Shown here: positions 2,845 to 20,731 of the stretch, piece by piece | How the letters are laid out: each line of letters opens with the position of its first letter | How positions within the stretch are numbered: position 1 is the stretch's first letter | Virus record (IMG/VR): IMGVR_UViG_3300025872_000236 | Coordinates: 1-28,522 of that record | Source: a virus | Reading direction: 5' to 3' (one strand) | DNA length: 28,522 nt | Program-made: the position numbers and the translations under genes | The notes under the pieces: model-generated | The model's input: only the letters and a program-made list of their open reading frames with translations | Databases searched by the model: none | Told to the model about the DNA's origin: nothing

Positions 2845-5800
2845 TCAGTAGGTTCCGCCGTCAATTGTCATGTTGTCCACGTAGTACTTCGTCGCAGCAT
2901 CTTGATTTGCCGTAGGATCTAAAACGTTAATTATCTTCTGCGAGTCCGAGTTAAATCCCTTGGCCTTAACTACACCGTCATCCGTAACCGATACGACCAG
3001 TGTGTTGGCGGCGTTCTTCAATTCTAATATGAAGTCGCCGGACGAAGCGTTTCTAATCGTAAGTCCGGTGACGCCGGAGGTAGAGCCTCGAATAATATTT
3101 CGGCTAGATGTAGTGGGCGTTATGGCCGCGTAGATCGTGTGGTCGTCGTCAGCTAATCCGGTAAGCGCGCCGTGATCCGTCGTACCTGCAGGACCCTGAG
3201 TTCCTTGAGGGCCGATAGGTCCTTGAACACCGGTAGCGCCGGGCGAACCTTGAACGCCTGTAGATCCTTGAACTCCGACGTCACCGGCGCGGGTAAACGA
3301 GATAACGACGTCATCGTTCTCACCGACTGCCGTTGATGATCCGGTGATGTACGTAACACTCAGCGCTACATAATTCGTGTAGGAGGTCAGTGCCGTTATT
3401 TGGTATTCGGCGAAAATAGCATCGTTATATAAAACGCTAACGCGCAACGATCCCTTAATAGTATTTGTTGAATCGTCGAAGGTTAGTAGCCAAGCTCCGA
3501 CATTAGCGCTATTTCCGTCGGTTTTGCTGATATACCAAACGGTGGTTGTGTTGGGGGCGGTACCGTTACCTGCTAAGTATCCGGAAGTCGGGTCTCCATT
3601 AGTTGCCTCGAAGGGCGCGACTAAGTACGGTGCTGTAGATCCGCCGTAGTTGCCAAAACTGCCTTGTACTCCCTGTACTCCCGTTGCGCCGGCAGAACCC
3701 TGAACACCCTGCACACCGGTAGCACCAACGGATCCTTGAACACCCTGAACTCCTGTAGCGCCGACAGAGCCTTGGACACCCTGCACGCCTGTGGCTCCAA
3801 CACTACCCTGTACGCCCTGAACACCAGTTGCACCCACCGACCCTTGAACGCCCTGAACACCAGTAGTGCCGACGGATCCTTGCACGCCCTGGACACCGAC
3901 ATTTCCGGCTCTAGCAAACGATACAATAATAACATCATTAGCCGACAGCGCACTTCCGGCGAGTACGTTGGTTACCGTAACTTCGACGTACCCTGTGTTA
4001 TCAATAACGCTGTTTATCGTGAAGTCGGTAAATGTTGCGGACTCGTAGTTCTTCGAGATACGAAGCGACCCCTTTACCGTGTTGGTGGAGTCATCCAACG
4101 CCAGCAACCACGGCCCCACCGAAACGGACTGCCCATCTGTTTTTGACAGATAGATAGACGTAGTTAACGCGTTAGTGGCATCTTTGAACGCACACTCCCC
4201 GGAACTAACGCTGGTGAGGCTGTAGCCTTTAAAATTGTACTGAATCGAGTCCCCGCCAAAGTTTCCAAAGGTTCCTTGAACACCCTGAACACCTTGGACT
4301 CCTTGCACGCCGGTTGCGCCCACCGAGCCTTGAACGCCTTGAACGCCCGTAGCTCCTACCGAGCCTTGAACGCCTTGAACGCCCGTAGCGCCAACGCTTC
4401 CCTGGACACCTTGAACACCGGTGGCGCCAACCGAGCCCTGCACTCCTTGCACGCCCGTAGCTCCGACCGAGCCCTGAACGCCTTGAACACCCGTAGCGCC
4501 GACGGATCCTTGCACGCCTTGAACGCCGGTAGCCCCAACACTACCTTGAACACCCTGTACGCCCGTCGCGCCAACAGAGCCCTGCACGCCCTGTACGCCA
4601 GTAGCGCCGACAGAACCCTGAACGCCCTGAACGCCAGCTGAACCACTCGATCCTTGCACACCTTGAACGCCAGTCGGTCCCTGGTCCCCGACGTCGCCGG
4701 CGCGGGCGAACGACATAATGATTTTGTCGTTTGCGGATAACGTACCAGCACCGGTCACATACGTAACAGGAATTTCTACGTAATTTGTGTACGGCGTTAT
4801 GTCGACGGAATCTATCGTGTAATCAACAAATACGTTGGACGAGAACTCTTTAAAAATTCTAAGCGAACCACGAACAGAGTTTGTTGAGTCATCGAGCGAG
4901 AGGAGCCAGGATGCTACGTTTACTGCCTGATCTGTGGTTTTAGAAACAACGATGGCTGTAGACAGCGCGGCGGTCGTGCTGTTAAGCCCGAGATACCCAG
5001 AACCCGGGTCGTTCGTTTTCGAGAATCCAAAGAAGGCATATTTTACCGAGTCGCCACCGTAATCGCCTGAAACTCCTGTAGTTCCGGTAGACCCCTGCGG
5101 TCCTTGTACGCCAGTAGCGCCGATAGATCCCTGAACGCCTTGAACGCCAGCAGCACCGACGGATCCTTGGACACCTTGCACGCCGGTTGCGCCGACAGAA
5201 CCTTGAACACCCTGCACGCCGGTAGCGCCGATAGAACCTTGAACCCCTTGTACGCCAGTAGCTCCCACAGATCCCTGAACACCCTGAACTCCCGTAGCGC
5301 CTACAGAACCCTGAACGCCCTGGACACCAGTTTCGCCAATCGAACCTTGGACGCCTTGTACACCGGTGTTGCCTGTGGCTCCGACAGACCCTTGTACGCC
5401 TTGAACGCCCTGAACGCCGGTAGTACCCGCAGACCCTTGCACGCCCTGCGCACCAACAGCACCAGCTAACCCTTGAACGCCCTGCACGCCGGTAGTTCCC
5501 TGCACACCTTGAGGGCCGATTATCGAGACTGCTGTTGGCCAGGCTCCGGCAGCCTTAGGACCGGAAATTTCCCAGTCTACTGTATTGATGAAGAAATCGC
5601 CGTTCGTGCCGACTGCGCCCGGGTCGCCCGCACCGTTTAATATAGTGTTTCCGAAGCTACCCTGCGCGCCTTGCACGCCAGCAGACCCTTGAACACCTTG
5701 GACACCCGCAGCACCTATGGATCCTTGCACACCCTGCACGCCTGTAGCACCAACGGATCCTTGGACGCCCTGAACACCGGCCGCACCTACGGACCCCTGT

Positions 5801-8800
5801 ACGCCTTGGACACCGGTTACTCCGATTGAGCCCTGAACGCCTTGAACGCCAGTAGCACCGATTGATCCTTGCACGCCCTGAACACCGGTTGCTCCGACTG
5901 ATCCTTGAGAACCCTGCGTTCCCGCAGGTCCCTGATCTCCAGTGTCGCCGGCTCGGGCAAACGACATGATAATTTTATCGTTCGTTGTTAATGTACCGGC
6001 ACCTGTTACATACGTAACAGGAATCTCGACGTAATTTGTGTACGACGTTATGTCGGTTGGATCTATCGTGTAATCCACGAAGATATTAGAGGAGAACTCT
6101 TTAAAAATTCTAAGCGAGCCGCGAACGGCATTTGTGGAGTCGTCTAACGCGAGCAACCATGCCGATACGTTTACGGCCTGATCTGTAGTTTTGGAGACGA
6201 CAATAGCCGTAGATAGCGCAGCCGTCGTATTGTTTAATCCGATATATCCAGAACCCGGATCGTTAGTTTTAGAGAATCCAAAGAACGCGTACTTTACCGA
6301 GTCTCCGCCGTAATCGCCCGATACGCCCGTAGTTCCGGTAGACCCTTGCGGTCCTTGAACTCCGGTGAGGCCAATAGACCCTTGTACACCCTGAACACCA
6401 GTTGCTCCCACCGAACCCTGCACACCTTGGACACCAGCAGCGCCGATAGAACCTTGTACGCCCTGGACGCCCACAGCACCGACAGAGCCTTGAACGCCCT
6501 GAACACCGGTTGCTCCGATAGAACCTTGAACCCCTTGAACGCCCGTGGCACCAACGCTCCCCTGTACGCCCTGAACACCAGTAGCGCCGACGGATCCTTG
6601 TACGCCTTGAACGCCAGTTAAACCTACACTGCCCTGAACTCCCTGAGGTCCGATTATAGATACAGCAGTCGGCCAAGATCCAGCAGCCTTGGGACCGGAA
6701 ATTTCCCAATCTGTGGTGTTGATAAAGAAATCGCCGTTCGTGCCCACGGCTCCCGGATCGCCGGCACCGTTTAATATGGTATTGCCGGTAGAGCCTTGAA
6801 CTCCCTGAGAACCTTGAATTCCTTGAACTCCGGTTGCACCGATAGTTCCTTGGACGCCTTGGAATCCAGTAGCTCCCACAGAACCTTGAACACCCTGAGG
6901 ACCGGCAACGCCTTGCGGCCCCGCATCGCCTGCGCGAGCAAATGATACGATTATTTTATCAGATACGCTAAACGATCCAGCACTGGTTACGTGCGAAACA
7001 GTAATTTGCACGTGACCAGATTGATTACTTAGGCTGGTTATGGTGTAGTCGGCAAATACTGATGAGTCGTACTCTTTAAAGAATCGCAGCGATCCTTTTA
7101 CCGTGTTAGTCGAGTCGTCGAGGGCGAGAAGCCAATTGGTTATGAGAGTGGTGAAGTCGTCGTTCTTTGAGAGATATACGACCGTAGTTGCGGAATTAGA
7201 TGCGCCGCTAAAATACGCCTGACCACCTAAGATAACGGGTGAGTCTACTGCGTAGCCCTGGAACGAGTATCGGAACGAGTCGCCACCAAAAAGACCGAAC
7301 GTGCCTTGACGGCCCTGAGCGCCCTGAGTCCCTTGTGCGCCCTGAACACCCGTAGCGCCGACTGAACCCTGCACACCCTGAACACCCGTTAAACCAACAC
7401 TCCCTTGAGTTCCTTGCGCACCTTGAACACCAGTCGCACCAACGGAACCTTGCACACCAGCAGCGCCAACTGACCCTTGCACACCTTGCACGCCCTGCAC
7501 GCCGGTTAATCCGGCAGAACCTTGAATCCCTTGAATTCCTTGAATTCCTTGAACGCCCTGCGGTCCAGTAGCACCAACAATACCTTGAACGCCTTGAACG
7601 CCTTGGGGTCCGATAATGCCCTGAGGTCCTATAGGTCCTTGATATCCTTGAGGACCCAAATCGCCTTGAACACCGAAATCGCCTTGAGGACCTAGCGGAC
7701 CTTGACGACCTTGAGTGCCTTGATAACCCTGCGGTCCTATAACACCCTGCGCGCCAATAGTTCCCTGTGATCCCTGATAACCGATAGGTCCTTGAACGCC
7801 TTGAACGCCTTGAATTCCTTGAATTCCCTGAACGCCTTGTACGCCTTGCGGCCCGATCTGCGTGTACATCACCTGAATTGCGGTGAATATCACGCTGGGG
7901 ATGGCAGGCGCGGGCGCTGCGGCGGGAATATATTGAATGGACACGTTTGTATTGGTCGTCTGCCAATACATTTCGATGTAGTCGTTAGCGGCCAGACTCA
8001 GGACAAAATTAACCGTACCTAACGCGTGACCGTCGACACCACCATGACTCTCGACTATCGACCACTTACTATCGGTGTCGGCGAGATTCGTTCCGTTTTT
8101 CTTAAGCCAGATGTTAGCGTCTTCGATTTGATTATGTGAGCTAGCAAATTGAACTGAAAATGTGAGCGAGTAAACGCCCTGATTAGCAAACGTCACTCGG
8201 CTATTAGAGACGATGCTTACGCCGGTAGAATCCGGGTCGGTGTTATTTAACGTAATCGCGTAGGCTGTATTAGCGGCGGCGGCCGTCTGATCCTGCGTCG
8301 ACCAGAACGAACCCCAGTAACCGATAGCGCCGCCAGCGCCGGTAGTTCCGGTCGACCCCTGTCGGCCCTGAGTTCCTTGCGGACCAATTTCGCCCTGAGG
8401 ACCAGCCGAGCCTGTGGGTCCCACCCCTTTTCGAGCACCGGACGTATCGAGAACATACCAACCATCGTCGTTGTAGCTGGCCGTTTCGCCAGTCAACAAA
8501 GTCGATTTATGCAGAATGCGCAGATTAGCGCCTTCCTTAAGAGCGACCACTAACGTTCGGGCAGATGAATCTGAGTTGTGGATCGTTACGTCACGAATAA
8601 CGTACGTCGAGCCGACCGCAGGACCAACGAGCAACGTCGTAGGCGATGCGGAAGTTCCACTGGTTACTGTTCCGTGAACGGGGGCCGGATTGAAATCGGT
8701 AGCTGTGTTCTCGGCGTACGAAACAACGAAAGTCGGCGCGGTGACGGGACCTGCGTCGAGGTAGGCGACGATTGACTGGGAAGAGGAGTTTAGAGCAATC

Positions 8801-8802
8801 AC
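2845..8802 (-). CDS. Giant collagen-like tail fibre (1985 aa) with five repeated beta domains
   Basis: Residues 1-125 are a globular N-terminal region. A short Gly-X-Y stretch follows, then a C1q/TNF-like beta domain at about 160-312, then long collagen-like Gly-X-Y runs dominated by GVQGVQGSVGAT units. Five related beta domains of about 120 residues interrupt the collagen (DNA about 6927-7284, 5943-6313, 4690-5062, 3893-4266 and 3283-3650). They share GGDS...Y.F, WLLALDDSTNTVKGSLR and a terminal SFARAGD. Two copies of an NTILNGAGDPGAVGTNGDF module occur at about 6651-6790 and 5518-5650. The C-terminus carries the phage tail motif DHGALTGLADDDHTIY and the motif IINVLDPTANQDAATKYYVD. The expected product is a long trimeric fibre of alternating triple helix and knobs. 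It starts at GTG, overlapping the upstream stop (GTGA); there is no convenient ATG nearby. Confidence 0.9.
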   Translation of the reverse strand: MIALNSSSQSIVAYLDAGPVTAPTFVVSYAENTATDFNPAPVHGTVTSGTSASPTTLLVGPAVGSTYVIRDVTIHNSDSSARTLVVALKEGANLRILHKSTLLTGETASYNDDGWYVLDTSGARKGVGPTGSAGPQGEIGPQGTQGRQGSTGTTGAGGAIGYWGSFWSTQDQTAAAANTAYAITLNNTDPDSTGVSIVSNSRVTFANQGVYSLTFSVQFASSHNQIEDANIWLKKNGTNLADTDSKWSIVESHGGVDGHALGTVNFVLSLAANDYIEMYWQTTNTNVSIQYIPAAAPAPAIPSVIFTAIQVMYTQIGPQGVQGVQGIQGIQGVQGVQGPIGYQGSQGTIGAQGVIGPQGYQGTQGRQGPLGPQGDFGVQGDLGPQGYQGPIGPQGIIGPQGVQGVQGIVGATGPQGVQGIQGIQGIQGSAGLTGVQGVQGVQGSVGAAGVQGSVGATGVQGAQGTQGSVGLTGVQGVQGSVGATGVQGAQGTQGAQGRQGTFGLFGGDSFRYSFQGYAVDSPVILGGQAYFSGASNSATTVVYLSKNDDFTTLITNWLLALDDSTNTVKGSLRFFKEYDSSVFADYTITSLSNQSGHVQITVSHVTSAGSFSVSDKIIVSFARAGDAGPQGVAGPQGVQGSVGATGFQGVQGTIGATGVQGIQGSQGVQGSTGNTILNGAGDPGAVGTNGDFFINTTDWEISGPKAAGSWPTAVSIIGPQGVQGSVGLTGVQGVQGSVGATGVQGVQGSVGATGVQGVQGSIGATGVQGVQGSVGAVGVQGVQGSIGAAGVQGVQGSVGATGVQGVQGSIGLTGVQGPQGSTGTTGVSGDYGGDSVKYAFFGFSKTNDPGSGYIGLNNTTAALSTAIVVSKTTDQAVNVSAWLLALDDSTNAVRGSLRIFKEFSSNIFVDYTIDPTDITSYTNYVEIPVTYVTGAGTLTTNDKIIMSFARAGDTGDQGPAGTQGSQGSVGATGVQGVQGSIGATGVQGVQGSIGVTGVQGVQGSVGAAGVQGVQGSVGATGVQGVQGSIGAAGVQGVQGSAGVQGAQGSFGNTILNGAGDPGAVGTNGDFFINTVDWEISGPKAAGAWPTAVSIIGPQGVQGTTGVQGVQGLAGAVGAQGVQGSAGTTGVQGVQGVQGSVGATGNTGVQGVQGSIGETGVQGVQGSVGATGVQGVQGSVGATGVQGVQGSIGATGVQGVQGSVGATGVQGVQGSVGAAGVQGVQGSIGATGVQGPQGSTGTTGVSGDYGGDSVKYAFFGFSKTNDPGSGYLGLNSTTAALSTAIVVSKTTDQAVNVASWLLSLDDSTNSVRGSLRIFKEFSSNVFVDYTIDSVDITPYTNYVEIPVTYVTGAGTLSANDKIIMSFARAGDVGDQGPTGVQGVQGSSGSAGVQGVQGSVGATGVQGVQGSVGATGVQGVQGSVGATGVQGVQGSVGATGVQGVQGSVGATGVQGVQGSVGATGVQGVQGSVGATGVQGVQGSVGATGVQGVQGSVGATGVQGVQGVQGVQGTFGNFGGDSIQYNFKGYSLTSVSSGECAFKDATNALTTSIYLSKTDGQSVSVGPWLLALDDSTNTVKGSLRISKNYESATFTDFTINSVIDNTGYVEVTVTNVLAGSALSANDVIIVSFARAGNVGVQGVQGSVGTTGVQGVQGSVGATGVQGVQGSVGATGVQGVQGSVGATGVQGVQGSVGATGVQGVQGSAGATGVQGVQGSFGNYGGSTAPYLVAPFEATNGDPTSGYLAGNGTAPNTTTVWYISKTDGNSANVGAWLLTFDDSTNTIKGSLRVSVLYNDAIFAEYQITALTSYTNYVALSVTYITGSSTAVGENDDVVISFTRAGDVGVQGSTGVQGSPGATGVQGPIGPQGTQGPAGTTDHGALTGLADDDHTIYAAITPTTSSRNIIRGSTSGVTGLTIRNASSGDFILELKNAANTLVVSVTDDGVVKAKGFNSDSQKIINVLDPTANQDAATKYYVDNMTIDGGTY
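4267..4690 (-). repeat. 36-bp-period collagen repeat array inside the giant fibre gene
   Basis: This is the longest uninterrupted run of the 12-residue unit GVQGVQGSVGAT, with about ten successive copies between the third and fourth beta domains. The encoded units are almost identical, yet the DNA copies differ at many third codon positions (for example tcc/acc/gcc variants and alternative Gly, Ala and Val codons). The repeats are therefore conserved as protein rather than as recent DNA duplications. Similar but shorter arrays occur at about 3656-3893, 5063-5517, 5651-5942, 6314-6650 and 7290-7855. Confidence 0.85.
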
Positions 8803-9133: not shown

Positions 9134-10744
9134 TCAAAGTCCAGGTAATGGGGGCGTCAGATTACTTAAATTAGGTGGTGATATATTAGGCGGCGTTAAA
9201 CCGCTTGCTAATCCACCAATATCCGGCGGCGTTAAACCACCGGCTAATCCACTAATATCCGGAGGTGTTAAACCACCGGCTAATCCACTAATATCCGGAG
9301 GTGTTAAACCACCGGCTAATCCACTAATATCCGGAGGTGTTAAACCGCCGCTAATTTCTTTTAATAGCGAAGCTCTATCACCGAGTAGTGATTGAGCTGC
9401 TGATTTAACAGACCCCAAAAGTTTTTTGAGAAATCCGATTTTTGATTTGAATCCGCGTAAGAAACCAAGAACAGAAAAACCTTTTGGAATAAGGTCTAGA
9501 GAAACTAACTTTGTGTACCCGTCCAACAATATTCCTTTATACATCGACAAATCAAAATAACCTCCGCCGCTAGAATTTAACGACAGCATAGGACTGCCAG
9601 TAGGTGTTTCAAAAAGAGCGGTCGTTAAATTAGTTCCTATGAGCGCGGGCGTGTCTAAGTGAATGGCGGATGTGGCGGTTAATTTAATAACGTCGCCGTC
9701 AATCGATACATTACTTCCTTTTATAAACACACCTGTAGAACTCATCTCAATCTTCTGACTACGTTTTAAATCCTCGATACGAACGGAATTTGTTTCGTTA
9801 TTAATTTCGATTACGAGCCAATCCCGATAAAAGACTCGAGATCCGTAACTAACGGCGCCAGACCCGCTAACTATCCGACCCTCTTCTTTATATATCTCAG
9901 TATTTCTAGTCTTCTCTGTTCCATCTGGTGCGTAGGTAATTGAATCTTGTCGCTCTCTGTAGCTATGCGTTTTATTGTCGCGCTCTTCTACGCGGTGATC
10001 ACCGTACATATCGCGTCGACCGCGTTCGACTTTAGGTGCCCTTATTAACTGTGTTCCGTATTTAGCTCTGTTACCAATTACGGGAATCACGCCCTCATAC
10101 GACTCTCGATCATTTTTAGCTGCGGGCTGACCTGTTGAATCTTGCTCAATAGGATTACTTTGAAGTTGTTCGTATATAGTTGTCGTGTTGGTTTTTGTGT
10201 TAAATATAATTGATTTAAAATAACCGACACTTCTAGTTACAAAGCTTCTAGCAGTAGTTAGAATTTTATTGTCGCGGCGATTGAACATCTGAAAGCAGAA
10301 GTTCGACGCGAACGTTAAGATTGCGCCGTAGGAGTAAATTTTAATTTTACTACGACTCTTCGGATCGTCTGTTCTGTTTTCAATCGAAGCATCGCCGGCA
10401 AAATGAATCTCGTCCTCAGGATCTCTAAACTGCGGCACATCTAAGGACGGCGATCGGGTGTTCAGCTCTGTCAGATTATTTACAAATGCGGCGGCCGATT
10501 CGTCGGTTGTTGTCGGTCTGTTAGTGCCGGCAGGTACGGCGGGCGACTCTAACTCGCCAATAATTATCCACGACGAGTCGTATACCTGAGCGCACACTAC
10601 GAGCTTTCGGTCAGGATACGGCCTATCCACGCCGTTATGTAATCGGCGGCAAAATCGATCACCAAGTCCGGTCACATTAACTGAGTAAACACGCGTTGAC
10701 GGATTGTAGCTGTTCACTCTGCCGTTATATAACTTACCTGTCAT
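9134..10744 (-). CDS. Baseplate spike/hub-like protein with OB-fold-like N-terminus
   Basis: The product is about 536 residues. The N-terminal region (LYNGRVNSYNPSTRVYSVNV, then a WIIIGELESP strand) looks like the OB-fold found at the start of gp5/VgrG-type and other baseplate spike proteins. The middle has beta-rich segments (IEMSSTGVFIKGSNVSIDGD, IKLTATSAIHLDT) resembling the stacked strands of spike proteins. The C-terminus carries tandem GGLTPPDISGLA repeats and ends in a Pro-rich tail. I place the start at the ATG at 10744, whose A is shared with the stop of the polymerase gene (TGATG); a GTG one codon earlier is possible. The position next to fibre genes supports a baseplate role. No lysozyme or peptidase motif was seen. 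The spike assignment is moderate because the fold is judged from pattern only. Confidence 0.62.
   Translation of the reverse strand: MTGKLYNGRVNSYNPSTRVYSVNVTGLGDRFCRRLHNGVDRPYPDRKLVVCAQVYDSSWIIIGELESPAVPAGTNRPTTTDESAAAFVNNLTELNTRSPSLDVPQFRDPEDEIHFAGDASIENRTDDPKSRSKIKIYSYGAILTFASNFCFQMFNRRDNKILTTARSFVTRSVGYFKSIIFNTKTNTTTIYEQLQSNPIEQDSTGQPAAKNDRESYEGVIPVIGNRAKYGTQLIRAPKVERGRRDMYGDHRVEERDNKTHSYRERQDSITYAPDGTEKTRNTEIYKEEGRIVSGSGAVSYGSRVFYRDWLVIEINNETNSVRIEDLKRSQKIEMSSTGVFIKGSNVSIDGDVIKLTATSAIHLDTPALIGTNLTTALFETPTGSPMLSLNSSGGGYFDLSMYKGILLDGYTKLVSLDLIPKGFSVLGFLRGFKSKIGFLKKLLGSVKSAAQSLLGDRASLLKEISGGLTPPDISGLAGGLTPPDISGLAGGLTPPDISGLAGGLTPPDIGGLASGLTPPNISPPNLSNLTPPLPGL
9210..9350 (-). repeat. 36-bp tandem repeats in the baseplate gene's 3' end
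   Basis: There are four successive 36-base units encoding GGLTPPDISGLA. The units at 9246-9281 and 9282-9317 are identical base for base. The one before them differs at a few positions, and the next is identical for its first part. A degenerate fifth copy lies at about 9174-9209. DNA-level identity points to recent expansion by slippage or unequal recombination, unlike the synonymously diverged collagen array nearby. Confidence 0.9.
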
Positions 10745-13700
10745 CACTTGCCTTTCGCGAGTGGCGTTCTAAATTTGACAGGAACACCTAATTCATTAGT
10801 GCCCACAAACGCTAGTTGCGTTATCGGGTGTCCGTCCGGGCCGAAGTTAGCCTTCATGCCGAGGGCGGGAGCCGCGCGCATAGTATCGATAAGTCGATCG
10901 TGCTGCATGCGACCGATGAAGTCAGCATTTTCGTGCGGAACTTTGATAACACCTATTAACGTAGGCTCGTACTTAATAGGCCGCTTGAGTTTCTTATTCA
11001 GCTCTTCAATAGCGTTAATTTGCATAACGTCGTTAACGTGAACGTCGTGATTTACGCCATCGCCGGGGTCGGTAACCCTAGCTCGATTAGTCATCGGTTT
11101 GATTACCGTCTCAAACATACGACGCTTAATGTCGATGCCCGACTCCTTGAAGCTGCCGTGAAGCTCATCAATCATCTTATTACGAACACGATTGATGTCT
11201 CCGGTAGCGGCGAGAAGATCGTGAGGTAAGAACTCACCAGTCTTGGAGATTCGGTCGCCGGCGTGAACCATCTGATTGACGGTCACACCCAGGCCGAGTT
11301 CCTCAGGCACGAAGTGCTTCTTGTTGTCGATTACAACTATCCAACCACCGGCGGGCGCGCGAGAAACCTCGCTTACCTTGCCGGTAGCCATCGCCAAGAT
11401 TTCTTTGTTCTTGATCGTGCTGGGCAGCTTAAACAACCGGTCTACCTTCGGGAAGTCCGTAGACGGGGATCCGATAGCTCCAGCAAAGTGGAAAGCGCGA
11501 AGAGCCATCTGAGTCGAGGGTTCTCCGATAGTCTGCGCCGCCAAGATTCCGATGTGGTATCCGATCGGGTAGAACTTTCCGTTCTCGCTGAGTCCGAAGC
11601 ACTGCTGACAGGTGCCTTGCTTAGCTTTGCACTTAAGGGGTGTTCGAACTTTTAACGTCATCTGCTTTGTGCTCATCTGACGAACACGATCCGCCGTTAA
11701 AATTTGACCCTTAAGCGGACCTTCGGCGACAACGCGATCTACAATTTCCGGATTAGTGATGGCCATATCTACGCCATCTGTCGTGCCACAGTCCGACATC
11801 GTGATCGTGTTGTCCATGTTCGAGTTGACGAGCAGCTTATTAAGGTAGCCCGTCTCGCCAGTCGATAAGCCTTTGTCAACCATACCCTTTCGGGAACCGG
11901 GCATGGTTGTCCAGTATTCGCCCAGGCTCAAACCCTCAGCAAACGATTTACGAATTTGAACAGGCACCAACTTTTTCATGTGATCCTGAACAGCGACCAC
12001 ACCGCCGACCATGTGAGCCACCTGCGGAGTCTTACCACCGAACGCGCCGGACACGCTGGACATATAAACAAATCTGTTGTCTTTGTCCGAGTGCACCATG
12101 CTCTTTATCTTGTTAGACGCATCAAGGGATGCTTCAGCAAAACCCTTAACCTTTTCATGATCCTTAGCCTCGTTGAGAATCTTATCTCTGGTGCCTAAAT
12201 CAGTTTTAAGATCGCGAAGCGAAACAGAGAACCCGATCTCCGTAACATAGTGATTGCCGAGATCCTTCATCTTATTAACGACGTCCGGCGACTTATCGGG
12301 GTGTTTTCTGGCGACGTCGCCGATAACTTTGCTCACCATCTTCTTCGTCATGAGTCCTTCAAACCGGCAGTCGGGCGGAAGAACCTCGTTCAAAAGCACG
12401 AAACCGGGCGTGATGATTTTACCGCCAACCGTAAACGCCTGATTAATCTCGCATTTTTTATCGTGATATTCTTTTAAAACTTCAGACGTAGTCGTTGCTG
12501 TTTTAGGCGTGCCTTTGGGATCCGTCATCATGTAGAGGCCGAGGATAGCCTCTGCCTCCGGCATGTGCATGACTCGATTATCGCCGGGCGAGAACATATT
12601 CTTAGACGGAAGAAGCTTCTCAAAAGCTTCCTTCTTGGCGGCTTCCGAAATCGGTACGTGAATACCGGCCGTATCGCCGTCAAAGTCCATGTTGTAGCCT
12701 TTGACGATCAACGGATTAACACGAATAGCCTGACCAGGAACTAGCGTGGGTTTAAACGCGAGCACGTTGAATTTATGCAGCGACGGCGCGCGGTTCATAA
12801 TAACCGGACGCTCAGCCGCCTCTATGTGCAGCACTTTCAACGCGAGCGGATCCTTCGCTTCGATCATCTCTTTAGCTTTTTGAGCGGTGTTCCCGAGATC
12901 TACCAACCGCTTAACCACAAACGGATGGTAAATCGTCATACCCATGGCTTCGGGAATTCCGACTTGATCGATACCTAATTTGTGATCAACAACAACAGTA
13001 GACCGCGCCGACAAGTCCTGAGGGCGCGACATGAGCTTACCTTGAAAGAATCCGATCTTGTTTTCAGCGCCCTTAATCTGCTGCAGGAATCCCTTGAAGT
13101 GCTGAGCGCGAGTTATGGGCTCAGTCATACCAACCAACCCGCTAACTGACCGATAAAGATCGCCGCGAAGTTGCTGAACATGCTTCGGATCAATCTTCAT
13201 ATCTTTCATGTCTCGCAAAGCGTTTGCGACCATGATTACTTCCCGATAGCCGTGATTAGCGTCAGAGACATTTAAAGATCCGTCCGGCAGCGGATTAACT
13301 GACCGAAATTTAGGAGGAATTACCGGGACAACTTTATTCATGTACGCCTGTTCAGGGCGCATTTGAATATTTTTAAGACCAAGCAGGAAGCGACGGCGTT
13401 TGTTTAATTTATCAATCAGCGCCGCCGACTTAGTAGAATTTATTTTAGCTACAACTTTGGTAAGCTCGGCGTCAACATTTATGTTTTTAAGGCGATCAAA
13501 CAGCGCGTCGCCGCCGTGCGGAAGGGATCCCGTTGGGTTAGGAACTATAGTTCCGGTAGGGCTGAAGCCTAAGCTACCGTCCATTACCCCGCCAAGATCC
13601 TTCTCGGTCATCTCAAGAACAGATGCGACCGCTTTAGTCATTAGCGGATTAACGATGGGTTCGGGTAATTCTATGTGAGCCCAGTTTGTGCCGCCCATTC

Positions 13701-16700
13701 CGCCAGTAATCGCGGGGTCAAACAAGCCATCCTTTTCAGGCTTAAGATTGTTTGCCGTTATGACGGTTGGGTCTTTGATAGCGCCGTTGGACATCGCTTT
13801 GATTTGATTATCCGTAAGCGGCAGTGCTTTGATTTCCGTACCGTGAGTCTGTAAATTAATCCCAGACCCCAACATGTACGTGTTAAATTTTTCAGCGACA
13901 AATGGAACTTTAGCTTTCGGAAGCATCAAGCCATTTTGAAGAGCGCGCCAGTACTCGTCGTTTCTATTACCTTTGATCGAGAACGCATCTTTAACAAATT
14001 GACGAGCATCGCCGGCCAGCAGAGAGAATAGCTCCAAACCGCCGACGCGTTGAGCGGAACCCTCGTCGGTTTTGGCGGGTTGCTCGTTCATCGTGTACTG
14101 ACCGCCGATTCCTCTCGCAGAGAACTTCTTAGACACGAGGTGTTTCAGTTTAAGGAAATGCGTATCCCCAACTAAAACGTTGTTGTAAGTGCGACCTGTG
14201 GTTGGATCAGTTACAGACTCCTCCCCGTGCGGGTCGAGGCCCGCCTTTTTCAGGTCGTTTGTGACTTTCTCAAGAACATTTCCGGGGGCGAAGTTATCGA
14301 CTATGTACGGCTTACCGGTTGTCTTGGCCAGCTTACCCGCGGCCGCTTCGTACAACTGACCGGGATTACGACGACCGACGACGCCTGCGGGGTTGAAGAT
14401 TATGTCTAGCGGTTTTCCAGACTTATCGTGATAAATTTCCTTATCCGGAATGATGGCCGTGACGATACCCTTACCGCCGTGACGCATCGAGAACTTATCG
14501 CCGATCTGAGTCGCCTCTTCGGTATGAAGAATAACTTTCACAAATCCGCCGGTATTCACGACTTCTTCAACTACGCCGTTGTGATCGTTTTCCCAGCGAA
14601 GTGATACATCTACCCAGTTATTCTTTAATGCTTTGTGTAGCCGAGAGAAATCGTAATCTTCGTGTAACTCTTGTTCGCGAACAGCCGGAACCAAAAGATC
14701 GCCGTTATGAACGACAGCACCTTTCTTTACCACGCCGGTGTTATCGTATTTGCTTCGATCGCCGATTTTGACCGCCTCATCCGGGTAGTGCGCTAAGAAT
14801 ATGCTCAGACCAACTTTAGTATTTGCATCTTTGTCCAGACGTTCCTCATACTTGTGAATAGAGGTCATCTTCTTAGAGCAAGACTCACTTATAACGATGC
14901 CGTCTTCAAAATTCATACCCTTGTACGGCATGTACGCAACACGCAAATTCTTACCGAGAGCGAGAGTCCCATTCTTGGTGTAGTTGCTCTCGGCGATAAG
15001 CTGATCTTTCTTTACAGAATCGCCGACTTTTACGATCGGAGTGTTGTGTAAATAAGTGTTGCTGTTTAACGGAAACTTATCGTAGATAGAAACGGAGTAA
15101 AGTTTTCCGTCATTTCCTTTAATCTTTATGGCATCCGAGGCGATGGCGGCGATACGACCATCGACGGGGGATTTCGGTAAAAACGCTTGACCAAACTTAG
15201 TCTCAAAGCCTACGCCGCCCATGTTCGCCTGAACGAGGGGAACATCGGGATCTTTCAAAGGAACAGTCTGCTCAAGGTGGCGGCTTGTATATCCGGCTCG
15301 AGTTGACTCGTCTGTATGAAGGAACGGAATTGCGTTAGACGAGATAGAGAAGACATTCGCGGCGCGCGGAATTATGTATTCGATTTCTGTAGGAAGGAAT
15401 TCCCTGAGATCGGCTTGTCTACGACCTTTAATCCGCGGCGCGAGGGCTTTCGGCGGTTTGCTGGTCAAATCAAACTGATCGGGAAACGCAATAACTTTTC
15501 TGTCTACTTCCTGAACAGACTTAGTCTCAAGCGCACCTGTTTTTGCGTTAATCAGTTTGATCGTTAATTCGTTGCCCGACTTTGCGGCGCCTAACGACAA
15601 ATGCCCAGTAACGCCAATCTTCTGTCCCTCGGGAGTCTGAATTGGGTCGATAACACCAGCGTGACTGGGGTGTACCGATCTCAGGTCGTCAGATATGGAG
15701 TGCGTAGACCCGATTCCGCCTTCGCCGAGAACGGTCGTCGTGAAGTTGGTGCTGACCATCTCCAACGGATTAACCTGATCGGCGAATCGTGCGAATTCAC
15801 TTTGATTGAAGAACCCGGTTACGGGCTTCGTAAATAGGCCGGGGTGGAAAGCTTCTTTAATCTTGCCAGTGCGATCGAGCTTACTGGCTATCGCAAACTT
15901 AATACTTTTGGTCGCTTCTCTAATTCTATCCGGAACAAAGTCTTCGACAGAGTGAAGGCTCTTGAACGCTAAACTTTCCGTATCGTCGGATTGAACTTGA
16001 TTTTTAGAAAGCGCGACGCATTTTCTAGCAGCGTCTAGAACGGCTTCTCCTGTGATGGAGGCGTGTGCGGCGTTTAGCGTAATCTGATTAACCTTCGGAT
16101 CAAGAGGCTTAGAATTCAAGAACGACGTGATAAGTTTTTGAGCTTCCGCTAAAGATGCGGGACGCGGCGCGGTCGGACGTAATTTCTCGTACAACTTAAA
16201 CGCTTGAACCTCGTCATCAACCTTCTCGTCTGTGGCCTGAAACACATCACGCCCGAGCGCTTCAATAATTCTATCATTCCCGATACCAAGCGCGCGAAGG
16301 ACGGTTGTGAGCGGGAAATGAGACGTCTGAACTCGGAAAGAAAAATCGCCGGTCTTTCTATCTAAAATAATTTTGTAAACCCCGGAAGCCGACGTATTTA
16401 CGAATGTCTCAATATTATTATCAGCGGTAGTTCGGACGTACAATCCCGGCCTCAATCTCAGCTGATTTACCGTCTGAATATCTTTACCGTCGACAACGAA
16501 CGAGTCACGCGCCGTTATGTGAGGAACTTGAAGAATTACAACGCCTTTTAAAGTATCTAAAGTCTTACCAGATGCATCGGTCATGGTCAGATCACCGCGC
16601 ATCTTAGCTAAGATAGAGCTGTCGTTGAGTTTGGCCTTTTTCTGCGCGGCGACGTCGTTCTTTATGTGGTCGCCTAAATTCTCCCACTTAAAATTCGATG

Positions 16701-16800
16701 CTGTTAATTTGTACTTACGGCCTTCGATAGGGAAAGCGTCGCGAACCGCCTCTTCGCACCGCTTAATTAACGCAGGAAATTGTTCGGTGGGGTTGATCAT
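10744..16800 (-). CDS. Single-chain fused beta/beta-prime bacterial-type RNA polymerase
   Basis: This 2018-residue protein is DNA-directed RNA polymerase. The beta part (1 to about 985) has the rifampicin-region homologue at 336-359, HPSHAGVIDPIQTPEGQKIG, NFEDGIVIS, GDKFSMRHGGKG (active-site K769 and K777), FNPAGVVGRRNPGQ and AQRVGGLELFSLL. Beta-prime homology resumes at about 990 (LTDNQIKAMSNGAI, then LKPEKDGLF at 1019-1027). It continues collinearly through PVIPPKF, NRAPSLHKFNVLAF, the Mg-binding NMDFDGD (D1372, D1374, D1376), a bridge-helix region, zinc cysteines C1671, C1724, C1731 and C1734, and the trigger loop with R1768 and H1771. E. coli beta plus beta-prime total about 2750 residues. 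Lineage inserts and the N-terminal zinc finger are absent here. I chose the ATG at 16800 because GGAGG lies five bases upstream; a TTG 15 bases earlier is less likely. No alpha, omega or sigma gene is in the window. Confidence 0.96.
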   Translation of the reverse strand: MINPTEQFPALIKRCEEAVRDAFPIEGRKYKLTASNFKWENLGDHIKNDVAAQKKAKLNDSSILAKMRGDLTMTDASGKTLDTLKGVVILQVPHITARDSFVVDGKDIQTVNQLRLRPGLYVRTTADNNIETFVNTSASGVYKIILDRKTGDFSFRVQTSHFPLTTVLRALGIGNDRIIEALGRDVFQATDEKVDDEVQAFKLYEKLRPTAPRPASLAEAQKLITSFLNSKPLDPKVNQITLNAAHASITGEAVLDAARKCVALSKNQVQSDDTESLAFKSLHSVEDFVPDRIREATKSIKFAIASKLDRTGKIKEAFHPGLFTKPVTGFFNQSEFARFADQVNPLEMVSTNFTTTVLGEGGIGSTHSISDDLRSVHPSHAGVIDPIQTPEGQKIGVTGHLSLGAAKSGNELTIKLINAKTGALETKSVQEVDRKVIAFPDQFDLTSKPPKALAPRIKGRRQADLREFLPTEIEYIIPRAANVFSISSNAIPFLHTDESTRAGYTSRHLEQTVPLKDPDVPLVQANMGGVGFETKFGQAFLPKSPVDGRIAAIASDAIKIKGNDGKLYSVSIYDKFPLNSNTYLHNTPIVKVGDSVKKDQLIAESNYTKNGTLALGKNLRVAYMPYKGMNFEDGIVISESCSKKMTSIHKYEERLDKDANTKVGLSIFLAHYPDEAVKIGDRSKYDNTGVVKKGAVVHNGDLLVPAVREQELHEDYDFSRLHKALKNNWVDVSLRWENDHNGVVEEVVNTGGFVKVILHTEEATQIGDKFSMRHGGKGIVTAIIPDKEIYHDKSGKPLDIIFNPAGVVGRRNPGQLYEAAAGKLAKTTGKPYIVDNFAPGNVLEKVTNDLKKAGLDPHGEESVTDPTTGRTYNNVLVGDTHFLKLKHLVSKKFSARGIGGQYTMNEQPAKTDEGSAQRVGGLELFSLLAGDARQFVKDAFSIKGNRNDEYWRALQNGLMLPKAKVPFVAEKFNTYMLGSGINLQTHGTEIKALPLTDNQIKAMSNGAIKDPTVITANNLKPEKDGLFDPAITGGMGGTNWAHIELPEPIVNPLMTKAVASVLEMTEKDLGGVMDGSLGFSPTGTIVPNPTGSLPHGGDALFDRLKNINVDAELTKVVAKINSTKSAALIDKLNKRRRFLLGLKNIQMRPEQAYMNKVVPVIPPKFRSVNPLPDGSLNVSDANHGYREVIMVANALRDMKDMKIDPKHVQQLRGDLYRSVSGLVGMTEPITRAQHFKGFLQQIKGAENKIGFFQGKLMSRPQDLSARSTVVVDHKLGIDQVGIPEAMGMTIYHPFVVKRLVDLGNTAQKAKEMIEAKDPLALKVLHIEAAERPVIMNRAPSLHKFNVLAFKPTLVPGQAIRVNPLIVKGYNMDFDGDTAGIHVPISEAAKKEAFEKLLPSKNMFSPGDNRVMHMPEAEAILGLYMMTDPKGTPKTATTTSEVLKEYHDKKCEINQAFTVGGKIITPGFVLLNEVLPPDCRFEGLMTKKMVSKVIGDVARKHPDKSPDVVNKMKDLGNHYVTEIGFSVSLRDLKTDLGTRDKILNEAKDHEKVKGFAEASLDASNKIKSMVHSDKDNRFVYMSSVSGAFGGKTPQVAHMVGGVVAVQDHMKKLVPVQIRKSFAEGLSLGEYWTTMPGSRKGMVDKGLSTGETGYLNKLLVNSNMDNTITMSDCGTTDGVDMAITNPEIVDRVVAEGPLKGQILTADRVRQMSTKQMTLKVRTPLKCKAKQGTCQQCFGLSENGKFYPIGYHIGILAAQTIGEPSTQMALRAFHFAGAIGSPSTDFPKVDRLFKLPSTIKNKEILAMATGKVSEVSRAPAGGWIVVIDNKKHFVPEELGLGVTVNQMVHAGDRISKTGEFLPHDLLAATGDINRVRNKMIDELHGSFKESGIDIKRRMFETVIKPMTNRARVTDPGDGVNHDVHVNDVMQINAIEELNKKLKRPIKYEPTLIGVIKVPHENADFIGRMQHDRLIDTMRAAPALGMKANFGPDGHPITQLAFVGTNELGVPVKFRTPLAKGK

Positions 16801-16801
16801 A

Positions 16802-17206
16802 TCAGCCTCCGCCAAGCTCCTTCATCCGCGCCTCATCATCTTCTCTAAGACTTTTGCCGGTGCGAACTAACGGGAGATTGTCGCCAAGTTCGTTGTAGAC
16901 GATCAGGCATTTGTAGTCGACGAAATCGTCGGCTCTGATCATCGAATATTTCTCGCTGACAACCTCATAACGATCAACGTCGTTATGAATTATCTGCCAG
17001 CGCGCACTATCGTGCTCAGTGCTGAGATCCAGCAATTCGCATCGACGTCGCTTAGTTTGCGCAGCCTTCGGATCGACCAAGCCGAGCGGAACAGCGCGAT
17101 CAACAATTTTATTGATCTTTTGTGTTACGCCGTCCAACACACGGGACGCCATCGCGGAGGTTAATCGCGATTTGTCGGCTTGGTCGTTTCCGCGGCCGTC
17201 GCTCAT
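16802..17206 (-). CDS. Unrecognised small protein between portal and RNA polymerase
   Basis: This 134-residue, charged, mostly soluble-looking protein has no signal peptide or membrane segment. The N-terminal half is helical and basic (ASRVLDGVTQKINKIVDRAV, then TKRRRCELL). The C-terminal half looks like a small alpha/beta region (RYEVVSEKYSMIRADDFVDY, CLIVYNEL). Its ATG overlaps the portal stop (ATGA). Its 3' end contains the GGAGG that serves as ribosome binding site for the polymerase, so the three genes look translationally linked. I do not recognise a family. Possible roles include a head-completion protein or a partner of the polymerase, but nothing in the sequence decides between them. 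Confidence 0.8.
   Translation of the reverse strand: MSDGRGNDQADKSRLTSAMASRVLDGVTQKINKIVDRAVPLGLVDPKAAQTKRRRCELLDLSTEHDSARWQIIHNDVDRYEVVSEKYSMIRADDFVDYKCLIVYNELGDNLPLVRTGKSLREDDEARMKELGGG
16806..16810 (-). promoter_or_regulatory. Ribosome binding site deciding the polymerase start
   Basis: On the minus strand GGAGG lies five bases before the ATG at 16800 and is embedded in the last codons of the upstream gene, whose TGA is one base from that ATG. This strong site supports the ATG over the TTG at 16815. Confidence 0.75.
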
Positions 17207-19020: not shown

Positions 19021-19674
19021 TTATTTGGCTTTCGCCATCTCCTCTTTGGCCATCGACAAACGTTCGAACACGTAGTTCTCTACATCATACAACTTTGCGG
19101 CCTGAACATCGACCAGTTCTTCTAAATTAAGTGTCGCATTAGGAATATCTTCTACGCGAGCCCTTATTTTCTCACGCAAATCTTTCTGAGAATCGGGTTC
19201 GTACTCAATGATGGCTTTAGGGTAAGCAAATACGCCATGCTGAACGAAGCACGCTTGAATGTACGCCACTACATCCTCCGAAAATTTTGGAAGATTCGGG
19301 TGAATCATTCGCGCCATTTGTATGCCGTATGAAATCTCCGCGGGCGACGCAACTTCAAGAACTTCAAAATTTGGCACGTGGTTGTTAAATGCCAAAATTA
19401 TATTCTCAAATCCCTCAATTCTTGTGGCAAATACGTCAGGATTGCCTAACAGAGTTTTTGCCGCAAAAATTGACGCCATAGCGCGATCAATTGGCTGATG
19501 AGAAACGTCAGATTTTAGCGAGGTCGGTAGAGAAAATTTAGTCGATATGCTTGTTCTAAGCGTTTCCGGTTCCCAACTAACCCAATCGGATCCTAAGACA
19601 GAGTTTAGTAATCTGACGTAGACCGCGACTGGGACGTTTTCGGCATTAAATAAAGCCGATTTTGGGTGTGACAT
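19021..19674 (-). CDS. Unrecognised head-region protein upstream of portal
   Basis: This 217-residue soluble protein has no signal peptide or transmembrane segment. It looks mainly helical, with an acidic, amphipathic C-terminal stretch (LEELVDVQAAKLYDVENYVF, then ERLSMAKEEMAKAK) that could be a coiled coil. The N-terminus includes a WVSWEPETLRTSIS segment. It ends three bases before the portal ATG and starts 13 bases after the stop of the preceding gene, so it belongs to the same transcription unit. Location suggests a head, neck or head-assembly protein. I do not recognise a family and no catalytic motif is evident. Confidence 0.82.
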   Translation of the reverse strand: MSHPKSALFNAENVPVAVYVRLLNSVLGSDWVSWEPETLRTSISTKFSLPTSLKSDVSHQPIDRAMASIFAAKTLLGNPDVFATRIEGFENIILAFNNHVPNFEVLEVASPAEISYGIQMARMIHPNLPKFSEDVVAYIQACFVQHGVFAYPKAIIEYEPDSQKDLREKIRARVEDIPNATLNLEELVDVQAAKLYDVENYVFERLSMAKEEMAKAK

Positions 19675-19687
19675 GAACTAACCATTC

Positions 19688-20731
19688 TCACTTCTTGGAC
19701 CAGGGTACGTACTTATTCTCCTCGAGTTTTTCTTTTATTTCCTTCATATCCTCAGTTTCTACCTCATCATCTTCTTTCTTAGGCAGCTTGGCGACAAGCG
19801 CGTCAATCGCTTTTTTCACCGCGGGAGAAGCGACGTAGTTGTAGTACTGAATGGGGCCACGAAGGAATCGATTTGCAACTTCGGGAGAGAATATCTGCTT
19901 CACTACGCCGGGATAGTTCACGGCGAGATTGGCAACCTGATTCTGCTCTATCGACGTCATATCACAAGACGCTAATTTAACCGCACCAGACCAGCACGTC
20001 ATAAACGCATCAGGAACACGACCGACAATACCAGCCGACTTATCGAGCTGATCGAGAAGGACGGCGCCGCGCTTTGAATCCATGCTCGCTAATCTATTTT
20101 TTAAATCTAGGAATTGAGCATGCTTAACAATGTCCTCTTTTAAAAGAGCTTCGCGTTGCTTCATCCCGTTTTCAAAATTAGGGCCGTAACCAGCCTTAGG
20201 CACGTAATCCATAATCCGCTGATCGGTGACCTGCGCCACTTTATTTAGCGCGTTTGCCGACACGACGCGCTCAGCCGGAGTCATTCGTCCGAAGTTCGCC
20301 AACCATTCTTGCTGAGCAAGGTCAAACGCAGCCTGCTTGCTCAGAGACTCGGTTTGCGGCATAGCCTCACCAGTTACGGTGAACGTGAATTGACCGGTTG
20401 AATTTACGGTCTCCGCTACAGCACCGGCTAGCTTAATCTGCGAAGATTCGGCCGCCTCCTGGATTCGGAATTGAGCCGCCTTGCGCATGTCTTCTGGAAG
20501 CTGATGGCCGTACGTATTGAAGTACGCGGCCGAAACCTTCACGAGCGCGGGCGAGGCGAGCGGAAACTTGCGGTGAGTGCCGGACGCCGTCTTAATCAAG
20601 ATCGCGAAATCACGGTCTTGGAGACGAGCTATGGCATCCGAGGACGGAACGCCCGACGACGCTAAATTAGGGTTGTTTACAAACTCAGGGTCATCGTAGC
20701 TATCAATTATCAGTCCGGCTAACTTAAGCAT
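19688..20731 (-). CDS. Unrecognised virion-module protein with KLAG N-terminus
   Basis: This 347-residue protein starts MLKLAGLIIDSYDD and is largely helical (for example ALVKVSAAYFNTYGH, RKAAQFRIQEAAESSQIKLA). The C-terminal 60 residues are strongly charged (LPKKEDDEVETEDMKEIKEK). The start is well supported: GGAGG sits seven bases before the ATG, inside the 3' end of the upstream gene. It lies in the head gene block just before the portal pair. It has no membrane segment and no recognisable protease triad. It may be a capsid-associated or internal head protein, but this is from position only. The short KLAG/KLAAP element shared with its upstream neighbour may be functional (see findings). 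Confidence 0.84.
   Translation of the reverse strand: MLKLAGLIIDSYDDPEFVNNPNLASSGVPSSDAIARLQDRDFAILIKTASGTHRKFPLASPALVKVSAAYFNTYGHQLPEDMRKAAQFRIQEAAESSQIKLAGAVAETVNSTGQFTFTVTGEAMPQTESLSKQAAFDLAQQEWLANFGRMTPAERVVSANALNKVAQVTDQRIMDYVPKAGYGPNFENGMKQREALLKEDIVKHAQFLDLKNRLASMDSKRGAVLLDQLDKSAGIVGRVPDAFMTCWSGAVKLASCDMTSIEQNQVANLAVNYPGVVKQIFSPEVANRFLRGPIQYYNYVASPAVKKAIDALVAKLPKKEDDEVETEDMKEIKEKLEENKYVPWSKK

Follow-up and report, generated by a model that had tools for sequence, protein, structure and literature searches.

The virus record IMGVR_UViG_3300025872_000236 of IMG/VR, 28,522 nucleotides long (this whole stretch is called the window below), encodes a single-chain RNA polymerase (RNAP) of 2018 amino acids in which a bacterial-type beta part runs directly into a beta-prime part. 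Judged by sequence comparison, the enzyme is a slightly odd member, with Met in its Mg-binding motif, of a large clade of single-chain phage polymerases. The best reading is that it is an early RNA polymerase that is packaged in the virion and lacks alpha and omega, and we consider this likely; that it is a catalytically complete, bacterial-type, DNA-dependent RNAP in one chain was assessed from sequence jointly with the packaged early-transcription role, and the two together are probable. This kind of enzyme, which would form an ancient branch among RNA polymerases, was described in 2020 from the multimeric-RNAP-encoding Caudovirales (mReC), and a cultured relative, Salmonella phage Arash, is known; the single-chain form is unmentioned in the main texts of PMC7481178 and PMC10585845.

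One reading frame for beta and beta-prime

The polymerase frame runs from an ATG at 16800 to 10744 on the minus strand with no internal stops, and GGAGG lies 5 bases upstream of the ATG; a TTG 15 bases further upstream is a possible but unlikely alternative start. Pfam matches were collinear along the chain (Rpb2 domains 2, 3 and 6, then Rpb1 domains 1, 2, 3 and 5), those to Rpb2_2 and Rpb1_3 being under the curated cut-offs. The first-pass annotation of this DNA, which did not give the strand, had described one uninterrupted frame carrying beta then beta-prime, collinear with RpoB and RpoC, and both the frame and the domain order agree with it. Matches were far above chance (E = 3e-61 in Pfam, E = 1e-95 in a PDB sequence search), searches of NCBIfam, Pfam and PDB sequences agreed on a bacterial-type beta followed by a beta-prime, and bacterial RNAP profiles outscored archaeal ones by far. 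A Peptidase_M23 match was rejected as a separate domain, as it falls in the barrel-sandwich repeats of beta-prime.

Alignment with the Escherichia coli subunits placed only a few residues between the beta and beta-prime segments, as had been noticed before. At the joint, where E. coli beta ends in GINIELEDE and alignment with E. coli beta-prime picks up again at FDAIKIAL, the window chain has GINLQTHGTEIKALPL; relative to E. coli, about 16 N-terminal beta-prime residues and a few C-terminal beta residues are lost. An AlphaFold model of residues 540–1500 (a 961-residue part across the joint, 47 sequences) had a predicted local distance difference test score (pLDDT) of 89 and a predicted template modeling score (pTM) of 0.82. 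In the model, residues 981–986 and 989–994 form strands with a short turn between them (pLDDT about 90), and the predicted fold is confident through the joint. The best PDB matches of the model were bacterial beta-prime chains; PDB chains are single subunits, and each spans only part of the model.

Active site and altered parts

Residues in this section are numbered as in E. coli unless stated. The residues K1065, K1073, R1106, E813 and D814 of beta, and R425, the three Asp of the Mg motif and H936 of beta-prime, are kept in the window enzyme and in 78/78 phage relatives, which upholds the earlier statement that catalytic residues are present. The second position of the Mg motif is Ala in 71 and Met in 6 of the 78 phage rows; the near-universal form is NADFDGD, and NMDFDGD is carried by the window enzyme and by loci L001, L002, L003, L012, L015 and L020. 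The Met in place of Ala could be taken as a sign that the chain is a catalytically dead structural relic. We regard this as very unlikely indeed, since all core catalytic residues are kept in the 78 relatives at approximately 30% identity, which argues for selection for activity.

The lid and flap are also present in the window polymerase, and the lineage-specific E. coli insertions are missing. Loss of the beta flap-tip helix was considered and rejected, as the alignment retains approximately 22 residues there. The N-terminal zinc-binding domain of beta-prime is absent in 78/78 phages, with gaps in the columns of its first and third Cys.

Three positions of the clamp coiled coil that are invariant among bacterial rows are changed across the phages: R275 is mostly Val or Ile, E295 mostly Leu, and Q300 Tyr in 72. 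In the rifampicin pocket, the window enzyme has Q513 changed to R, H526 to T, R529 to T and S531 to T. In bacteria, these coiled-coil positions contact sigma and these pocket positions contact rifampicin. The substitutions suggest that the phage polymerase may use a different initiation factor and may be resistant to rifampicin.

Recurrence of the single frame

A scan of viral contigs yielded 400 candidate stretches encoding a relative, and the best 80 of the 400 were retained. A single frame over beta and beta-prime was found at 77 of 81 viral-contig loci; of the four exceptions, two (L022 and L068) run off the end of their contig and two (L071 and L074) are broken by TGA codons only. Further viral scans, in partial overlap with the first, gave a single frame at 85 of 98 loci, the remaining 13 being TGA-interrupted, of the Arash type, cut, or (one case, L274) of another multi-gene arrangement. 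By one count there are 94 distinct single frames of at least 1600 amino acids with the DxDGD motif.

Approximately 85,000 bacterial and archaeal species were also scanned. The matches listed, which contained 80 loci, were all ordinary rpoB/rpoC of bacterial records at 25–31% identity; rarer matches could escape a scan of this kind. The first-pass annotation had allowed for a close relative among chromosomal rpoBC fusions and for an assembly join between two genes. No such fusion was among the matches listed, and the join explanation fails, the same join being found in dozens of independent contigs. Phage collections do contain some contaminant bacterial rpoBC, and several records there resemble a bacterial chromosome with rpoB and rpoC (e.g., ‘Staphylococcus phage SA 1306 Kay’, AGRM01000005). 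That the window gene is an assembly join, or a bacterial chromosome taken for a virus, is nevertheless improbable to the point of being negligible, as the fused frame stands beside phage genes in dozens of independent contigs and in isolate genomes.

Several relatives depart from the common form. Polymerase frames broken only by in-frame TGA were seen in L071 (9956–16030), L074 (9956–16015), L239, L244, L267 and L271. In L071, 4 of the 11 in-frame TGA codons sit where 64–78 of the other phages have Trp, a sign that TGA may be read as Trp. Intein-like inserts with LAGLIDADG domains lie inside beta at two different conserved sites, in L002 (P0003, residues approximately 375–787) and L020 (residues 781–1113); judged from length alone, L265 (2419 amino acids) possibly has one. 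On L274, a 236 kb contig, the phage RNAP is spread over several genes, with part of beta-prime preceding beta, and falls outside the single-chain pattern. In Vibrio phages D181 and D148, relatives of Vibrio phage D69, the polymerase region includes a gene annotated as a homing endonuclease along with further separate genes.

Phylogeny and origin

Trees were built from phage and bacterial rows, with no archaeal, eukaryotic or nucleocytoplasmic large DNA virus (NCLDV) rows; because there are no archaeal rows, the root cannot be placed. In a tree of 81 phage and 65 bacterial rows, phages and bacteria were split by a branch of 1.35 changes per site with support 1.0. One tree for beta and one for beta-prime, each inferred under a mixture model, gave the same split (Shimodaira-Hasegawa approximate likelihood ratio test, SH-aLRT, 100), and in both the neighbors of the window enzyme were L001, then L010, then L012, which indicates that the two halves traveled together. 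The phage clade is internally very deep and is set apart from every sampled bacterial phylum by a long branch. The only full-length bacterial fusion in the compared set, a natural rpoB-rpoC fusion of approximately 2880 amino acids in a Bryobacterales metagenome-assembled genome (L096, Acidobacteriota), was placed among bacteria.

The first-pass annotation had proposed a distinct phage lineage acquired from a bacterial rpoBC operon by simple fusion. A natural beta/beta-prime fusion in a phage gene and a lineage of its own both stand; a simple, recent capture is unsupported, because the separating branch is long and the phage clade deep. A scenario in which the rpoBC operon of a single bacterium was taken up recently and then simply fused would fit the far higher scores of bacterial over archaeal profiles and the existence of natural bacterial fusions such as L096. 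We consider it very unlikely: both halves place the phages in one clade on a long branch from the sampled bacteria, identity does not exceed approximately 31% among the matches listed from the species scan, and the beta-prime zinc-binding domain is missing from all 78 phages.

Arash-type phages encode the end of beta-prime in a gene of its own. This split may be secondary: both the beta tree and the concatenated tree favor that view, the beta-prime tree giving no resolution. Cobetia phage Carin-5 and Yersinia phage GN1 have two-gene enzymes that were tried as an unfused ancestor and rejected, as they fall far outside (branch 2.78) and have beta-prime before beta. These enzymes (L257 and L258, respectively) are a different phage RNAP type, with two adjacent genes, beta-prime first, and the motif FNLDYDGD; in Carin-5 the gene immediately upstream carries a sigma-factor annotation.

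Gene neighborhood and proposed role

The polymerase gene abuts or overlaps a 134-amino-acid gene upstream and a spike-like gene downstream. One strand carries, in conserved order, a 347-amino-acid gene, a 217-amino-acid gene, the portal gene, the small gene where present, the polymerase and the spike-like gene, with other genes interposed in many relatives. The portal family takes in the annotated portal of Arash. The earlier placement of the polymerase in a structural operon is thus confirmed: its same-strand neighbors overlap, and the order portal, small gene, polymerase, spike-like gene recurs in relatives.

One polymerase per phage was found in 21/21 large relatives. Alpha was found in 0/21 of these and omega in 0/23 (the 21 large relatives, Arash and D69). 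Sigma region 2 was detected in 5/21 large relatives, with two copies in the closest relative, L001, and sigma region 4 was matched in 10/23, of which 7 were over the cut-off. In mass spectrometry of Arash virions, Gp206 was the most-detected protein, and Gp216 and a sigma factor were also present (PMC10585845); by our sequence comparison, Gp206 holds beta and the catalytic part of beta-prime.

On the reading we prefer, the polymerase would be made along with the structural proteins, packed into the capsid and injected with the DNA, and the first phage genes would be transcribed without host beta or beta-prime. Promoter choice would probably be made via a phage-encoded sigma-like factor and not host sigma-70, while the chain fusion would help to hold the two barrels together without an alpha dimer. 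For the window's phage we infer packaging, activity, early transcription, sigma use and rifampicin resistance.

Several points weigh against this. The virion abundance data come from Arash, a distant relative at approximately 31% identity to the window enzyme. The Arash proteome comprised 116 proteins including metabolic enzymes; among the options its authors name are early transcription and the carry-over of proteins that are abundant (PMC10585845). Sigma-type proteins were undetected in most large relatives, though these records may be fragments, and what is said of sigma and rifampicin comes from residue substitutions.

Alternatively, the polymerase would not be a virion protein and would serve middle or late transcription after infection, its place in the structural operon being due to chance and host RNAP transcribing the early genes. 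A single polymerase per phage may have to serve late genes, and many non-structural enzymes occur in Arash virion preparations (PMC10585845). The conserved position next to portal and spike-like genes and the top spectral count of Gp206 in Arash virions (PMC10585845) argue the other way, and we rate this alternative as unlikely, if well short of negligible.

If the packaged reading holds, a compact bacterial-type RNAP of approximately 2000 residues in one gene may need no alpha or omega, and it would make testable which parts of cellular RNAP are required for assembly and catalysis. A packaged, host-independent start of transcription is suggested for a large phage group with cultured members. 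More broadly, the evidence is in our judgment evenly balanced on whether a deep, widespread phage clade ancestrally had a single-chain packaged virion RNAP without alpha, omega or the beta-prime zinc-binding domain and with a rewired sigma contact. If it did, the two-subunit description in the literature misses the basic architecture of the clade's RNAP.

Features of the window

The window spans the entire virus record and is probably part of a larger genome; its main genes are on the minus strand. Feature coordinates are given in Table 1, where family counts refer to 88 compared sequences including the window.

Table 1. Polymerase parts and neighboring genes, by position in the window
Feature	Position	Strand	Basis
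Single-chain beta/beta-prime RNAP gene, 2018 amino acids	10744..16800	-	Open frame, GGAGG before ATG, ordered Rpb2 and Rpb1 domains
Beta part, residues 1-986	13843..16800	-	Alignment with E. coli RpoB; Rpb2 domains
Beta-prime part, residues 987-2018	10747..13842	-	Alignment with E. coli RpoC; Rpb1 domains
Joint, residues 981-994 (INLQTHGTEIKALP): from the last strand of beta through a short turn to the first strand of beta-prime	13819..13860	-	Alignment and AlphaFold model
Beta active-site lysines K769, K777 (E. coli K1065, K1073)	14470..14496	-	Both kept in 78/78 phage rows
Mg-binding motif NMDFDGD, residues 1370-1376; Met for usual Ala	12673..12693	-	Three Asp in 78/78
Bridge helix, 36 amino acids	11818..11925	-	Ungapped, 13 residues shared with E. 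coli
Trigger loop region with the catalytic His, without SI3 insertion	11398..11562	-	E. coli alignment
Second zinc site, four Cys kept (C1671, C1724, C1731, C1734)	11599..11790	-	E. coli alignment
Site of absent bacterial beta-prime zinc-binding domain (four Cys)	13690..13707	-	E. coli 67-90 reduced to ~5 residues
Clamp coiled coil, 45 amino acids as in E. coli	13129..13263	-	R275 to V, E295 to L, Q300 to Y
347-amino-acid gene, conserved block	19688..20731	-	Family in 42/88
217-amino-acid gene, conserved block	19021..19674	-	Family in 46/88
Portal protein, 604 amino acids	17203..19017	-	phrog_64 E 1e-5, phrog_2739 E 1e-3; family in 72/88
134-amino-acid gene between portal and polymerase	16802..17206	-	Family in 8/88
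Spike-like gene, 537 amino acids, directly downstream of polymerase	9134..10747	-	Weak Phage_spike match, E 0.042; family in 53/88

The 3′ end of the spike-like gene (9134–10747) contains tandem copies of a GLTPPDISGLAG-like unit. A collagen-like fiber gene (2845–8802, 1985 amino acids) has 19 collagen repeat stretches, and a large gene at 1–2472, cut by the record end, encodes DUF285 repeats (a Mycoplasma-type family). No Rfam matches or tRNA were found in the 28,522-base window.

Comparison with known systems

Arash Gp206/Gp216 and the enzyme of Vibrio phage D69 belong to the same clade as the window enzyme and likewise join beta and beta-prime in one chain, and both phages have the order portal, small gene, polymerase. 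Unlike the window chain, theirs stops shortly past the barrel with the Mg motif, the rest of beta-prime being a separate gene, and the genes are annotated as separate beta and beta-prime.

The mReC, of which 97 contigs are published, are metagenomic tailed phages (Weinheimer and Aylward, 2020; PMC7481178). Their RNAPs resemble the window enzyme in a beta and beta-prime recognizable by cellular profiles, a clade apart from Bacteria and structural-gene neighbors; they differ in that the main text describes two subunits, beta and beta-prime, and does not call these enzymes fused, fusion terms being used there only for crAss-like enzymes (PMC7481178, main text without supplements). No single-chain description was found in the main texts of PMC7481178 and PMC10585845, the search covering neither supplements nor subscription journals, and prior notice of the fusion elsewhere in the literature is possible. 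In a study of 2023, one viral RNAP gene with the annotation beta and beta prime branched basal to the mReC clade.

Among mReC traits, the window has tailed-phage hallmark genes (portal, conserved structural order) and cellular-profile matches to beta and beta-prime (Pfam, NCBIfam); of the mReC trait of an RNAP clade apart from cellular life and NCLDV, the trees, which hold bacterial and phage rows, showed the split from Bacteria. The NADxDGD motif, the filter for beta-prime in that paper (PMC7481178), is replaced by NMDFDGD in the window, while 71/78 relatives carry Ala there. Eight mReC major capsid proteins were reported as PF07068 (gp23-type; PMC7481178); PF07068 was found in 0/21 large relatives and in neither Arash nor D69, with a positive T4 control, and the window itself has no identified capsid gene. 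Scans that used proteins of related samples did not recover the named mReC contigs. Because the NADxDGD and gp23-type capsid traits are lacking, the window is called mReC-like and not a proven mReC member; the mReC clade and the single-chain clade are likely to be the same or nested.

The earlier separation of the window enzyme from split phiKZ/AR9 enzymes and from YonO/crAss-type enzymes was sound. The phiKZ/AR9-type RNAPs are likewise phage-encoded, related to cellular RNAP and devoid of alpha and omega, and one set is packaged (PMC7598289); they comprise four or five polypeptides, with two enzymes per phage (PMC7598289), and are far more diverged, whereas the window has one 2018-residue frame, of which the AR9 match covered 13% at 25%. 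The crAss-like, P23-45 and YonO RNAPs are one chain, as in the window, and those of P23-45 and crAss-like phages are linked to virion genes (PMC10770324, PMC7481178). They are highly diverged, the crAss-like ones having no recognizable match to a cellular COG profile (PMC7481178), whereas the window enzyme matches the bacterial subunits domain by domain.

Bacterial beta/beta-prime fusions (Helicobacter and Wolbachia type, NF007172, NF011417; L096) have the same chain order and are about 2840–2890 amino acids long, versus 2018 in the window, which stays far below the curated cut-offs of NF007172 (502 versus 5372 bits) and NF011417 (461 versus 4632 bits). The window enzyme instead has the features of the single-chain phage clade, namely one frame, no beta-prime zinc-binding domain and grouping with phages in both half-trees.

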